In this document: positions 21,889 through 58,360 of the stretch, piece by piece
Numbering within the stretch: the first letter of the stretch is position 1
How the letters are laid out: each line of letters starts with the position of its first letter
Source: Hymenobacter sp. GOD-10R
GTDB lineage: Bacteria; Bacteroidota; Bacteroidia; Cytophagales; Hymenobacteraceae
Length of the DNA stretch: 64,000 nt
Direction of reading: 5' to 3'
NCBI RefSeq assembly: GCF_035609205.1
Contig: NZ_CP141184.1
Span: 2,570,501 to 2,634,500 of the forward strand
Notes under the pieces: model-generated
Databases searched by the model: none
Told to the model about the DNA's origin: nothing
The model's input: only the letters and a program-made list of their open reading frames with translations
Translations under genes and position numbers: made by a program

Positions 21889-22644
21889 TTACAAACCATA
21901 GATGCCGCCGGATACCGATATTTTCTCCCCCGTAATCCAGGCGGCATCTTCCGACGCCAGGAAGACGGCTGCTTTGGCGATATCGGCGGGCTGACCCGTC
22001 CGACCAAGGGGAGTGGTTGCCACTAAGCGGGTTTCTGCCTCGCTGCCGATAAAGCCTCCACTGCGGGACCCTTCCGTGTCCACAATGCCGGGCAGAATCG
22101 AATTGCCGCGGATGTTGCGGCCGCTGAACTCCTTCGACAACGATGTCGTGAGGGCATCCAAGGCGGCTTTGGAGGCCGAATAGATGGAGCCAGTAGGGAG
22201 AGGGTTTCTGCCAGCTTCGGAGCTGATATTGATGATGTTGCCACCGGCCGCGCCAAAGAGTTTCAACGATTCCTGAATGGCGAGTACCGTGCCCCACACG
22301 TTGATATCGAACTGCCGCCGAAAGGACTCAGCTGACACCGCTTCAATGGGAGCATAGTCATAAATGCCGGCATTGTTGACCAGGATATCCAAGGTGCCGA
22401 ACGCCGCCTGGGTTTCGGCAAATAGTCGGCGCACATCGGCTTCGTTCGATACATCGGCCTGTACCGAAATAGCCGTGCCGCCAGAAGCCCTAATGGCCTG
22501 GACTACTTCATCAGCCCCGTCCTTGCTGGCGGCATAATTCACCACCACGCTAGCCCCTTCGGCGGCAAAAAAGGTGGCAATGGCCGCGCCGATGCCTTTG
22601 GAGGCCCCGGTAACTACCGCGACCTTGTTCTTGAGCTTGCTCAT
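21889..22644 (-). CDS. SDR-family oxidoreductase (FabG-like)
   Basis: 251 residues, classical SDR: TGASKGIG at 12-19, VNNAG at 89-93, Ser141/142, YSASK (Tyr155, Lys159) and the C-terminal WITGEKISVSGG dimer segment. Length and motifs match FabG/glucose-dehydrogenase-like members; substrate not predictable. First gene of a two-SDR operon. A palindrome like that at the pirin promoter lies about 104 bp upstream of the start (22741-22754), and a Crp/Fnr-type gene with a frameshift is transcribed divergently. Confidence 0.92.
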   Translation of the reverse strand: MSKLKNKVAVVTGASKGIGAAIATFFAAEGASVVVNYAASKDGADEVVQAIRASGGTAISVQADVSNEADVRRLFAETQAAFGTLDILVNNAGIYDYAPIEAVSAESFRRQFDINVWGTVLAIQESLKLFGAAGGNIINISSEAGRNPLPTGSIYSASKAALDALTTSLSKEFSGRNIRGNSILPGIVDTEGSRSGGFIGSEAETRLVATTPLGRTGQPADIAKAAVFLASEDAAWITGEKISVSGGIYGL

Positions 22645-22740: not shown

Positions 22741-22754
22741 AGGACATTTGTCAC
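22741..22754 (-). promoter_or_regulatory. Crp/Fnr-type operator before the two-SDR operon
   Basis: AGGACATTTGTCAC on the plus strand: the core GACATTTGTC is the same as in the pirin operator, with 11 of 14 positions of TTGACATTTGTCAA. Its centre is 37.5 bp from the -7-like CAATTTTG on the minus strand at 22710-22717, against 36.5 bp at the two other sites. Confidence 0.6.
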
Positions 22755-23069: not shown

Positions 23070-23647
23070 ATGATTGAACGGTTCCGAAAGTACCTGACTT
23101 CCAAAGCCGCTTTTACCGACGATGAGTTGGAGCAGATAGAGGCGGGGGCGGTAGTGAAAAGCTCAAGCGCCGAGAATATTTATTGCGGCAAGGTGACGTA
23201 TGCCGGGACATGGCCTTTGTCGTGAGCGGCTGCTTGCGCCTCTACCGCACCGATGAGCAAGCACAGGAACACATCATGCGCTTTGCGGTTGAGATCTGGT
23301 GGATTACCGACGCCGAAAGCTTCCGCACTGGGCTGCCGGCCAAAGGGGCTATCGATGCGCTGGAAGACACTCAGGTGCTGTTGTGGTCAAGGGAAAACTT
23401 CGAGCGGCTGAAAAAGGAAGCTCCGACCTTCAACGCCCTAGAAAATCAATTAGCCGGTCACTACTTGGATGCTCAGGTCAACCGGCTCTACACGGCCATC
23501 AGCCACAGCGCGGAAGAGCGCTACGAGGAGTTTGTAAAGGCCTTCCCCGATTTCTACCAGCGCATCCCGCTGCACATGATTGCCTCTTACCTAGGCCTCT
23601 CCCGCGAAACCCTCAGCCGCATCCGCAAGCATACCGGCTTTCATTGA
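23070..23647 (+). pseudogene. Crp/Fnr-family transcriptional regulator, frameshifted
   Basis: From the ATG at 23070 the frame reads MIERFRKYLTSKAAFTDDEL then loses register at an A4 run (23157-23160); adding one A restores KLKRREYLLRQGDVCRDMAF and the rest to the stop at 23647. Together they give about 192 residues: cyclic-nucleotide-binding-like beta-roll, a dimer helix, and a C-terminal HTH (HMIASYLGLSRETLSRIRK). It is closely related to the intact gene at 57791-58360. Without the shift only a truncated product from an internal TTG at 23183 would be possible. Genuine mutation and sequencing error cannot be separated here. Confidence 0.85.
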
Positions 23648-53141: not shown

Positions 53142-53588
53142 TTATTCAGCCAGTTGCTGCATGAGGCGGTTAAAAACCGTCGCCTCCGCCTGAACAGGGC
53201 CGAAAAAGGTGGTATCTACCTCCTGCACCAGCGTGTAAGCGTGGCGCAACAGCGTTTCACCGGCGGGCAACAAGTGGAGCTGCTTAGCGCGGCCATCCTG
53301 CGCGTTGGTACCTCTTTCCAACAGCCCTTTTTTCTCCAAGGTCTGCAACACTTTAGACGTCATCATTCTATCGACGTGGGCATAATCAGCCAGTCGTTGT
53401 TGCGTGACGACTTCCCCTTGCCGGCTGAGCCAGTACAGGCCGGCCAGCAACGAAAACTGGGTGAGCGTAAGGCCAACAACTCGCAAGCGCTGATTCATTT
53501 GTAGCTGCCAGCGCATACTCACCTGCCACAGCAAATAGCCGTTGTTCTCCTCCGGCTGCGAGTACGTAAAAATTGGTTCAGTCATCAT
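53142..53588 (-). CDS. MarR-family transcriptional regulator
   Basis: 148 residues. Winged-helix core: LTQFSLLAGLYWLSRQGEVVTQQRLADYAHVDRMMTSKVLQTLEKKGLLERG ordering is typical, then wing residues DGRAKQLHLLPAGETLL. The start overlaps the EVE-domain gene by 11 bp, so it is translationally coupled to it. It is the last gene of a VOC-EVE-MarR operon whose promoter lies inside a 34-bp palindrome, the likely target of this protein (autorepression). Confidence 0.93.
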   Translation of the reverse strand: MMTEPIFTYSQPEENNGYLLWQVSMRWQLQMNQRLRVVGLTLTQFSLLAGLYWLSRQGEVVTQQRLADYAHVDRMMTSKVLQTLEKKGLLERGTNAQDGRAKQLHLLPAGETLLRHAYTLVQEVDTTFFGPVQAEATVFNRLMQQLAE

Positions 53589-55039: not shown

Positions 55040-55798
55040 CTACACCTGCGCAGCTCCCCCGTCTACAAACAGCTCAGTGCCCGTCACGAAGCTGCTATCA
55101 TCGGAAGCCAGGAACACGAGGGCCTTGCCGATTTCATCGGGGGTACCCAAGCGACCCAGCGGCACGGTGCTGGCCAAGTAGTTTTTGATTTGCTCAGCCT
55201 GAGTGACGTCGGCGGCGAGGCCGCTGAGGCCCGGGGTGTCGATGGGGCCGGGACTGATGGCATTCACCCGGATTTTACGGTCCTTCAGGTCGGCCGTCCA
55301 GGTGCGGGCAAATGAGCGTACGGCGGCCTTCGAGGCGCTATACACGCTAAAGTTGGCCCCACCCTGCGAGCCGGCCGTGGATGACATCAGGATAATGGAG
55401 GCGCCATCGCGCAACAGGGGTAGGGCTTTCTGCACCGTGAAGAGTGTGGCTTTCACGTTCAGGTTGAAGGTGTTGTCAAAGTGCGCTTCCGTGATGCCGC
55501 CTAGGGCGCTAAACTCGCCGCCCCCCGCGTTGGTGAACAGGATATCTAGCTGGCCTTTCTCTGCCTGGATGGTGGCAAACAGCTGGTCAAGGTCGGCTTG
55601 ACTGGTCACGTCGCTGCGGATGCCTTGGGCGTTGGCGCCGAGCTGTTGCACGGCCGCGTCTAGCTCGGCTTGCCGGCGACCCGTAATAAAGACGTAGGCA
55701 CCCTCGCCGACGAAGCGCTGGGCAGCGCCCAGCCCAATGCCTGTGGTACCGCCCGTAATGAGGGCCACTTTACCAGCTAGTTTCAAGTTGTTGCTCAT
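55040..55798 (-). CDS. SDR-family oxidoreductase
   Basis: 252 residues, classical [11 protein letters not shown] at 15-22, TNAGG at 89-93, Ser140, YSASK (Tyr153, Lys157) and the C-terminal [12 protein letters not shown] dimerisation segment. It is a monocistronic gene whose promoter carries a Crp/Fnr-type palindrome (55932-55945) at the same distance from the -7 element as in the pirin promoter, so it should be in the same regulon. Substrate unknown. Confidence 0.94.
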
Positions 55799-56554
55799 AA
55801 TAAGAAACGAAAAAACAGTGTGAAGTTGTGAGTCAGTGCGGCAATTTTTGCCGGCTGTAGGAGAGCAGCAGCAGCCTTTTGGCTAGCTTCAGCTAACGGT
55901 ACAAAGGTGTCACCCTGCTCCCCTAGCTCCATTGATATTTGTCAAAAAAGCAAGCTGACAATCAGGTGTCAGGTAGATAAAAGCACCTAGGTCATTGCTC
56001 ACTTAATTGTTGCTTAGTCTGGTGGGTGAACCTCAGCTCTGACGCGCGAACACGCAGCATGCAGTGCAGGAAGCTGTCTTTCTTCCCCTTATCCGAAGTA
56101 AGTGAGGCATTCAGTCTCACCCGGCTTAGCGCTTAACCTTTGGCGCTAGGCCGGCTGCCAGTTCAAAGGTGAACCAGGCGCGACTGGTAGTGCGGTCCGT
56201 TGGCACTCAGTTGCCAGGAAATCAACTGTATGCTAACTTCTTCACTGGCAGAATATACCTCTCCATTCTATTTAGAATCAGTGTATTAATGTTGAAGTGA
56301 ATCCGCCAGATTCCCTAACGCACCTAATTGGGCGTATATTAATCGTGGCGGCGGTGTAGCAGTGGAAGGAGGTAACCTCACCGAAAGGCGTCACAGCAAG
56401 GGGCATGCATCTCCTTGCCAGTAGCGAGTATAGTACCCGTCAATGCTAGGTGCCTCTGGTGCGTGATGCTCAGCGGTAGCTCCACTACTGCTACATTACC
56501 AGCTACGTACAGATCAAGATTAGCCGCGCAAACCAGGCCTAGATAGCCAATCAT
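55799..56554. other. intergenic region with the SDR promoter
   Basis: 756 bp. The -7-like CACCTTTG on the minus strand (55902-55909) and the operator 55932-55945 belong to the SDR gene. The rest shows no gene. Confidence 0.4.
55932..55945 (-). promoter_or_regulatory. Crp/Fnr-type operator before an SDR gene
   Basis: TTGATATTTGTCAA, 13 of 14 positions shared with the pirin site, both followed by a run of A. Half-sites are 5 bp with 4-bp spacing, the Crp/Fnr geometry. Its centre is 36.5 bp from the last base of the -7-like element at 55902-55909, near -41.5 relative to a predicted start. Confidence 0.7.
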
Positions 56555-57265
56555 CTAAGCCTTCATAGGAACATCTAGCAGCAATACTTCCGCGGGGCTG
56601 CTGGCTTTTAAGTGCAGCACTTCGGTATTCCAGATACCTAGCCCGTCGTAGGGGCCTAGGAGTTGGCCGTCGATAGCTACCTCGCCCCGTAGCACGAAGG
56701 CGTATACCCCGTTACCCGTCTTTTTTACTTGATAGTCCAAAGAAACCTCGGAGTCGAGCGTGCCCAGGTGCAGCCAGGCTTGTTGCCGGAGGCTCACCCC
56801 TGCCTCATGGGCGTGAGGCGACGCCACTTGAACAAAGTGGTTAGGAACGGCCAAAAAGGCTTGTTGATCGTAGCGCGGCGCAGCGTTGGGTTGATCGGTA
56901 GTGAGCCAGATCTGCAGAAAATGCACGGGCTGCTGATTACTGTTGTTCCTTTCGCTGTGAGCAATACCCGAGCCGGCACTCATCACCTGCACTTCTCCCG
57001 CCTGAATGACCGCCTGGTGGCCTAAGGAGTCTTCGTGCGCCAGCGCGCCGGCTAGGGGGAAGGTAATAATTTCCATATTTTGGTGGGCGTGCATGCCAAA
57101 GCCGCGACCCCCTTCTACGGTGTCGTCATTGAGGATTTGCAGTGCCCCGAACGCCTGGCGGTTAGGGTCATAGATTCCGCCCGCATTGAAGCTGCGATAG
57201 GCATCAAGCCAGCCTAGGTTCGCATGGATGCGCGTAGTGGCCGGGTGAAAAATGGTAGAAGTCAT
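56555..57265 (-). CDS. pirin-family protein (quercetin dioxygenase-like)
   Basis: 236 residues from the ATG at 57265; a longer frame is non-conserved. Bicupin with the pirin metal motif near 55-66 (FGMHAHQNMEIITF) and HSERN near 105-110; the C-terminal cupin is degenerate, as usual. Pirins bind Fe or Ni, and some cleave quercetin or act as redox-responsive co-regulators. It is a single gene with a near-perfect Crp/Fnr-type operator 130 bp upstream, next to an intact Crp/Fnr gene. Confidence 0.95.
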   Translation of the reverse strand: MTSTIFHPATTRIHANLGWLDAYRSFNAGGIYDPNRQAFGALQILNDDTVEGGRGFGMHAHQNMEIITFPLAGALAHEDSLGHQAVIQAGEVQVMSAGSGIAHSERNNSNQQPVHFLQIWLTTDQPNAAPRYDQQAFLAVPNHFVQVASPHAHEAGVSLRQQAWLHLGTLDSEVSLDYQVKKTGNGVYAFVLRGEVAIDGQLLGPYDGLGIWNTEVLHLKASSPAEVLLLDVPMKA

Positions 57266-57387
57266 AAGAGAAGAAGGGAAGTGAGGAGGAGCTATCGGCC
57301 CTGCCAGCGAAACCTTTGTTGCGGACAGATTCAGGCTACAGAAGTTGCCCGATAACACAAAGGTCTAGCCCAGCGCTGGCTGCACCT

Positions 57388-57401
57388 TTGACATTTGTCA
57401 A
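57388..57401 (-). promoter_or_regulatory. Crp/Fnr-type operator before pirin
   Basis: TTGACATTTGTCAA, a perfect palindrome (TTGAC-ATTT-GTCAA). Its centre is 36.5 bp from the last base of the minus-strand -7-like GACCTTTG at 57358-57365, so about -41.5, the class II activator position. Confidence 0.75.
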
Positions 57402-57790
57402 AAAATGGAAAGCCCTACTTACTCACTACCTCCTAGGCGCCAGCTGCCTTATAATCACAACAAGACGCTAGCATGACTGGGCTCTTCTTGATACCTATCA
57501 ATGGCCCTGCTCTTGCCGTAGCTAGGACCTGTGCTGCATACTTATTCGCTCTGCGGTATGGAAGGTGATACCCCCTTGCTGCCCTACCTTGCCAACCAAG
57601 TCTGCTTCTTAGCCTCTACTCAATCCACAACTAAGACTGAATAATCCCCAGCAAAGGTATCGTTCACGTAGCCGTAATTAGTCCACCATTTAAGGTTGCC
57701 CAGAAGCTGAACTTTAACGGTGTCAGTCACTTTACACAGCCATTTTGCAGCCGCGCTATCGGAGAATCACAAACTTCATAGCTGACCAGG
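57402..57790. other. intergenic region between pirin operator and Crp/Fnr gene
   Basis: 389 bp with no supported gene. Confidence 0.35.
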
Positions 57791-58360
57791 TTACACCTTC
57801 CGCCGGATGCGGCTCAAGGTTTCGGTTGTCATGCCCAGGTAAGAGGCCACCATATGCTGTGGAATGCGCAAGGCGAAAGCGGGGTATTTCTGGAGGAAGT
57901 CGCGGTACTTTTCCTCGGCTGAGTAGCTAATAGACGCGTGAATCCGACTTTGGGACGCTAGAAAGCTGTTATGCAGAATATGGTTGACTAGCTCATTTAG
58001 TACCGGTATTTCGCTTCGCAGCCGGTCAAAGTCTTCGCGCTTAATCAACAAGACAGTTGAGTCCTCTACGGCGTCGATGTTGTAAGCCGAAGGCAGGCCG
58101 GAGGTCAGGCTCTGGCGGTCACCGGTCCACCAGTTTTCCACGGCAAAGTTGATAATGTGCTCCGCCCCTTTAGCGTCGATAGTGTAGGTACGGAGGCATC
58201 CACTAGTCACGAAGGCATTATAAGTCCAGACGTCTCCCGCTCGTAGCAGTAAATGGCGTTTAGGCAAGTTTAAGAGAGTACTCACGGCCTGGATCTGCTG
58301 GATTTCGGCGGAAGTAAAAGCGGCCTTGCTCATCAAATACTCTTCAAATGCAGCAAACAT
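57791..58360 (-). CDS. Crp/Fnr-family transcriptional regulator, intact
   Basis: 189 residues. N-terminal beta-roll sensor about 20-115 (LLLRAGDVWTYNAFVTSGCL, HIINFAVENWWTGD, TVLLIKREDF), dimer helix and HTH at about 160-186 (RIPQHMVASYLGMTTETLSR). The sensor lacks the cAMP-binding RXAS signature of CRP, so the ligand is not cAMP in the standard way. Closest relative in the window is the frameshifted gene at 23070-23647. It lies next to pirin and is the best candidate to bind the TTGACATTTGTCAA-type sites. Its own promoter does not carry the site. Confidence 0.94.
   Translation of the reverse strand: MFAAFEEYLMSKAAFTSAEIQQIQAVSTLLNLPKRHLLLRAGDVWTYNAFVTSGCLRTYTIDAKGAEHIINFAVENWWTGDRQSLTSGLPSAYNIDAVEDSTVLLIKREDFDRLRSEIPVLNELVNHILHNSFLASQSRIHASISYSAEEKYRDFLQKYPAFALRIPQHMVASYLGMTTETLSRIRRKV

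Follow-up and report, generated by a model that had tools for sequence, protein, structure and literature searches.

Crp/Fnr proteins placed at -41.5 generally activate transcription, and the E-xx-SR signature in the recognition helix is the motif of FNR/FixK-type DNA recognition. Another member of the superfamily, CRP, carries the recognition helix SRETVGR, in which an arginine precedes the glutamate, and reads TGTGA-N6-TCACA. In the available portions of the two sources, the operator consensus of FixK and FnrN is TTGANCNNGATCAANG and FixK is described without Fe-S cysteines (PMC4999443), and the FNR site of Neisseria, TTGATTTGAATCAA, lies at 41.5 (PMC1802743). Among solved structures, the closest sequence to the regulator described here is 3dn7, a cyclic-nucleotide-binding-type regulator (E 1.1e-33, residues 16-188), which differs in presenting the helix TPEYLSEIRK in the alignment. 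No paper giving operators for the local Crp/Fnr regulators of Bacteroidota was found in the open-access library searched.

The locus considered here lies in Hymenobacter sp. GOD-10R, in a window of 64,000 nucleotides that comprises the whole stretch of DNA analyzed (bases 2570501-2634500 of contig C1; genome size 7.5 Mb). The regulator, termed CrpA, and its predicted operators and targets are as follows.

55040..55798, minus strand: SDR family oxidoreductase, 252 aa, predicted target (PF13561, 1.5e-62)
55902..55909, minus strand: -7 box CACCTTTG of the SDR promoter, last base 36.5 bp from the operator centre
55932..55945, minus strand: predicted Crp/Fnr operator of the SDR promoter, TTGATATTTGTCAA on the plus and TTGACAAATATCAA on the minus strand, conserved in relatives
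56555..57265, minus strand: predicted target, a pirin family protein of 236 aa when started at the ATG at 57265 (PF02678, PF17954)
57358..57365, minus strand: -7 box GACCTTTG of the pirin promoter, 36.5 bp to the operator centre
57388..57401, minus strand: predicted Crp/Fnr operator of the pirin promoter, TTGACATTTGTCAA on the plus and TTGACAAATGTCAA on the minus strand, also at the pirin promoter of the relative G014
57488..57501, no strand assigned: a further exact match to TTGAY-N4-RTCAA, TTGATACCTATCAA, located in the crpA-pirin interval and absent from the sequence-only reading
57791..58360, minus strand: CrpA, a 189-aa regulator of Crp/Fnr type with a single Cys and the recognition helix TTETLSRIRRK (PF00027; aligned to 3dn7 and FNR)

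The two promoter palindromes are quite probably operators from which a Crp/Fnr-type dimer activates in class II fashion, with CrpA as the main binder. Site, spacing, conservation, co-occurrence with a regulator clade and the link between operator and helix were computed, and from these we infer binding, activation over repression, the signal and the place of CrpA as main binder. The operator kind, that of FNR and FixK, is already known; the regulon and the helix rule developed below are new.

CrpA has an N-terminal cNMP-binding-type sensor domain (PF00027, 1.5e-11). A Pfam scan at 1e-3 returned no HTH domain, and at the C-terminus the alignments with 3dn7 and FNR extend across the HTH of each, ending at residue 188 or 185. 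Within the FNR HTH (YLGLTVETISRL), TTETLSRI of CrpA aligns with TVETISRL, so that E-xx-SR is present, and ETLSR is kept in 25/25 members of the CrpA clade. The locus shares with FNR, FnrN and FixK the 14-bp TTGA..TCAA palindrome and the E-xx-SR helix and, with FixK as described in the available text, the absence of Fe-S cysteines. CrpA is without the four-Cys 4Fe-4S set of FNR, and the 25 clade members carry one or two Cys each, with a single column invariant in all 25; a Cys at a like motif occurs in 58 of 108 proteins of a wider Crp/Fnr set. Unlike FNR, FnrN and FixK, regulators of the CrpA type are ~190 aa long with no four-Cys cluster, their sites have C or T as the fifth base, an AT-rich spacer and a Bacteroidota -7 box instead of a -10, and their targets are neighbouring oxidoreductase- and pirin-type genes, not respiration. 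In comparison with CRP, the operators of CrpA and of a second regulator, CrpB, have N4 rather than N6 geometry, whereas the RETLSR class to which CrpB belongs resembles CRP in its Arg before Glu and has G-richer half-sites.

The sequence-only reading had described two near-identical palindromes, each followed by an A run and equally spaced from the ACCTTTG of separate genes. All three observations held when the sequence was re-read: the palindromes match at 13/14 positions with coordinates exact, AAAA follows each on the plus strand (a T-tract upstream on the transcribed strand), and the distance from the centre to the last base of ACCTTTG, read as CAAAGGT on the plus strand at 55902-55908 and 57358-57364, is 36.5 bp twice, as counted and by script. 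Searched with TTGAYATTTGTCAA at up to 2 mismatches, the window yielded 3 matches where 0.41 would be expected, located at two places of which one matched on both strands, and at least 3 matches arose in 1 of 100 shuffled windows; the crpA promoter showed no match to this pattern at the same threshold. A stronger argument for real sites than the shuffle statistics is conservation across relatives. In an alignment of 8 promoters from this genome and 6 relatives (mean column identity 70%), the two densest invariant runs lie in the T-tract plus palindrome and in ACCTTTGT. The extra palindrome at 57488-57501 has no TTTG at 36.5-37.5 bp, and its interpretation as a relic of a decayed divergent SnoaL promoter is unsupported (best E 0.089, located elsewhere).

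A search for CrpA homologues covered 39 relatives, of which 34 had a match at 1e-3, as well as 120 genomes of the same genus, of which 65 had one at 1e-35, and stretches fetched around the stronger homologues provided 108 Crp/Fnr proteins. TTGAY-N4-RTCAA occurs within 2.5 kb of 25/25 homologues scoring above 250 bits to CrpA (56 distinct sites) and of 24/83 weaker ones, against 0-1/25 and 0-2/83 for eight control palindromes, made with different spacers or by scrambling the halves. On a tree of the 108 proteins, the site label requires 4 changes compared with ~36 when shuffled, a form of clustering that near-copies inflate. A de novo palindrome search ranked TTGAC-N4 first, barely (9 loci; next unrelated palindrome, 8). 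The association extends to new taxa: among 33 of 47 loci, those not used before, 31 are from outside Hymenobacter (Flavobacterium, Pedobacter, Mucilaginibacter, Niastella and others), and 26/33 have a site within 2.5 kb, with six controls at 0-3/33. By helix, the site lies beside 26/28 xE-T regulators and 0/5 others, or 25/26 and 0/5 for the non-Hymenobacter loci alone. L268, a TTETLSR relative, lacks a site within 2.5 kb, and so does L274, where the stretch ends shortly past the regulator gene.

A second regulator and its surroundings in the same window bear on how operator and helix are related.

21889..22644, minus strand: second SDR, 251 aa, putative (sequence read by eye), predicted target of the CrpB-type operator
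22741..22754, minus strand: operator of a different class, AGGACATTTGTCAC (GTGACAAATGTCCT on the minus strand), 37.5 bp from where a TTTG of the second SDR ends
23183..23647, plus strand: CrpB, Crp/Fnr regulator of the RETLSR class, 154 aa (relatives ~192 aa)

CrpB is possibly broken at its 5' end in this strain; the ATG further upstream, at 23070, does not share the CrpB reading frame, which starts at 23183. The sequence-only reading had offered 22741-22754 as a third seed site. The palindrome exists, but it matches TTGACATTTGTCAA at 11/14 positions and was rejected as a third copy of the operator, being of a separate class that recurs beside genes of the CrpB clade. Beside regulators of this clade, which is mostly RETLSR, the site recurs as a GACATTTGTC core with G-richer ends in 8/14 upstream regions; five of the eight sites have a TTTG, and two more a TTG, ending 36.5-37.5 bp away.

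Across the first set of 108 proteins, where the helix rule was both noticed and counted, TTGAY sites accompany 48/49 xE-T regulators, 1/14 RE-T, 0/32 ESLSR, 0/8 xE-F or other and 0/5 unclassified ones; only the scan of the 33 new loci is independent. The G-rich and TTATC patterns were written after the data had been seen, so that their counts are descriptive: the G-rich operator is found with 8/14 RE-T, 1/8 xE-F or other and 3/5 unclassified proteins, and TTATC-N4-GATAA beside 10/15 ESLSR-VRR regulators, 10/10 of these sites having a TTTG at 36.5-37.5 bp. In the 120 genomes, the TTATC composite has 19 matches against 3 for its reversed control; for 14 of these, a CrpA homologue from the searches above lies no more than 4.5 kb away. 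The 17 ESLSR-IRx proteins score 0/17 for TTGAY, G-rich and TTATC patterns, and a fixed-distance palindrome search found none for this clade. In a small RETLSR clade (L072, L197), GYGTC-N4-GACGC lies 37.5 bp from TTTG in 2/3, too few to interpret. Judged from sequence comparison, operator type appears to follow the recognition helix, with xETLSR pairing with TTGAY, RETLSR with a GGAC type and ESLSR-VRR with TTATC.

A genome-wide motif search, which the sequence-only reading had put forward as its check, revealed enrichment: the site and -7 box at fixed distance occur 212 times in the 120 same-genus genomes against 17 for the reversed control, with a match in 83/120 genomes. In this genome there are 7 composite occurrences (reversed control, 1), namely the SDR and pirin promoters, four in an island spanning C1:3390-3405 kb and one on C4, and none is more than ~2.1 kb from the nearest Crp/Fnr match. 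The one at G000:C4:68035-68078, TTGATTGTAATCAA, lies beside another Crp/Fnr match. A phylum sample gave composite matches in 176/296 genomes, a count of pattern matches alone. The palindrome without the -7 box is a weak genome-wide signal, with 81 one-mismatch matches against 50 for the reversed control, and exact TTGAC-N4-GTCAA is present at 11 places where ~7 were estimated. Local Crp/Fnr regulators are numerous in these bacteria, CrpA itself having 19 matches in this genome. Five Crp/Fnr matches fall within ~20 kb in an island (L055/L056; G000:C1:3384000-3418000) that also holds oxidoreductases, histidine kinases, a sigma-54 activator and a fusion of a response regulator with a pyridine-nucleotide oxidoreductase. 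Sets of Crp/Fnr, pirin and SDR genes resembling that of the window are present in L065, L066 and L067.

Whether the sites persist in relatives without the regulator was answered, within limits, in favour of the sequence-only reading. Among the matches listed, an exact site lies within 300 bp upstream in 4/30 SDR loci (G000, which is this genome, G048, G019 and G014). These four SDRs are the ones of 87-100% identity, each has a TTTG at the right distance, and in all four genomes a CrpA is present with identity of 77% or higher. No exact site lies upstream of the remaining 26 of the 30 listed SDR loci, which include second copies in G014 and G048; two of them have a one-mismatch site with no fitting -7. 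For pirin, the site lies upstream in 2/30 of the matches listed (G000 and G014), and the pirin gene of G072, outside those 30, also has it. Pirin homologues in L113, L115, L117, L124 and L131 have a different palindrome, TGTATGTACATA, upstream. The SDR site of G048 is ~12 kb from crpA, so the site tracks its target and not just the gene of the regulator. As a limit on the link to CrpA, distant xETLSR paralogues use the same operator elsewhere, at genes other than these, where the genome has no close CrpA. Of the composite-match loci listed, 21/30 hold a Crp/Fnr protein within 1.5 kb, 21/21 with the ETLSR helix, and 19 of these proteins score only 34-59 bits to CrpA and lie beside other genes, which include what we take, from their sequences, to be sterol-desaturase-like and DinB-like proteins.

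The proposal that one regulator, CrpA, drives both SDR and pirin is supported by the enrichment and by the co-occurrence of site and regulator. Four other Crp/Fnr genes seen in this genome have an xETLSR helix and adjoin the same type of operator, and paralogues with the helices TAETLSR, SAETLSR, SPETLSR and LPETLSR lie beside such sites, so CrpA may not be the only binder. It is unlikely that CrpA is a minor player and that one or more paralogues with the same helix, such as the 65%-identical one at C1:3404375, regulate SDR and pirin, since the SDR sites accompany a close CrpA in G014, G019 and G048 and the spacer differs by clade: AAAT is found in 18/22 sites nearest TTETLSR regulators, including both window sites, AAAA in 7/9 beside tandem pairs, and AATT or AAAA in 12/16 beside TAETLSR.

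Promoter geometry informs the direction of control. In 50 of 72 distinct sites, a TTTG ends 36.5 bp (11) or 37.5 bp (39) from the centre, the next best offset having 6, and the SDR and pirin promoters of the window are of the shorter, 36.5-bp kind. ACC precedes 45 of the 50 boxes; two of the boxes, L164 3417 and L185 6530, face away from a gene and are probably chance. Of the remaining 22 sites, 13 are tandem partners located 22-23 bp from a site with a fitting TTTG. The -7 box of Flavobacterium psychrophilum spans -12 to -5 in the available text (PMC9723704), which would place operator centres at -41.5 or -42.5; by analogy with this other genus, the window operators would be centred near -41.5. 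A T precedes the A of the box in 1/50 promoters compared with 53/158 background ANNTTTG sequences. No TTG was found 26-35 bp from the box end in the 50 promoters, which tells little because background TANNTTTG likewise has no -33 peak. Outside Hymenobacter, the -7 offset has no clear peak (4 at 36.5 and 2 at 37.5, one of them from a Hymenobacter locus, against 6 at 14.5), which restricts the demonstration of the exact geometry to Hymenobacter.

The operator borders directly on the -33 region, as it would if CrpA were a repressor blocking RNA polymerase there. Such a role seems improbable, given that the fixed spacing to a T-less -7 and the tandem upstream sites at 22-23 bp fit activation, as does the usual behaviour of Crp/Fnr proteins at -41.5. 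MarR or TetR dimers, too, can suit six-base palindromes with a gap of 2 bp, and the sites might belong to a different family of regulators, such as that of the MarR-type protein at 53142-53588; this is very unlikely, as the site tracks Crp/Fnr clades over 108 proteins and changes with the Crp/Fnr helix, and no MarR match exists among ORFs of at least 80 aa in the site-bearing L062 and L063. Half-sites alone are common in the genome, but a chance likeness of two AT-rich palindromes is barely conceivable beside the composite enrichment, the 25/25 co-occurrence and the conserved promoter columns.

It is most likely that CrpA, perhaps with paralogues of the same helix, activates SDR and pirin from a class II position. 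The CrpA dimer would read TTGAY/RTCAA half-sites across the 4-bp AT-rich spacer and, centred at about -41.5, would sit just upstream of the would-be -33 element. From there it may recruit the Bacteroidota primary sigma factor to the -7 box ACCTTTG, which is without the usual T of TAnnTTTG. SDR and pirin expression would rise together in response to a signal, perhaps redox or electrophile stress sensed by the one invariant Cys. The ATG is 104 bases from the -7 box end at SDR and 93 at pirin. Downstream ORFs were named by script for 47/50 of the site-plus-TTTG promoters, a few of them doubtful because of long leaders or odd starts. Pfam families among the targets searched are SDR, pirin, luciferase-like monooxygenase, ferritin (presumably Dps-like), isochorismatase, flavodoxin-fold reductase, YceI, SnoaL, an alginate-export-type protein and a HATPase protein; one searched target had no Pfam match. 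These families suggest redox or electrophile stress, and nothing beyond.

For Bacteroidota as a whole, the balance tips slightly towards a broader picture in which many Crp/Fnr paralogues each mainly drive the gene next door from a fixed geometry (-41.5/-42.5 before ACCTTTG). The helix would predict the operator (xETLSR, TTGAY-N4-RTCAA; RETLSR, [AG]GGAC-N4-GTC[AC]C; ESLSR-VRR, TTATC-N4-GATAA), and spacer and flanks would separate paralogues of the same helix. The analysis raises the question of how same-helix regulators in one cell avoid each other's promoters. It yields operators that can be tested, a promoter geometry for the unusual sigma factor of Bacteroidota and a rule leading from helix to operator, the main part of which held on taxa outside Hymenobacter.
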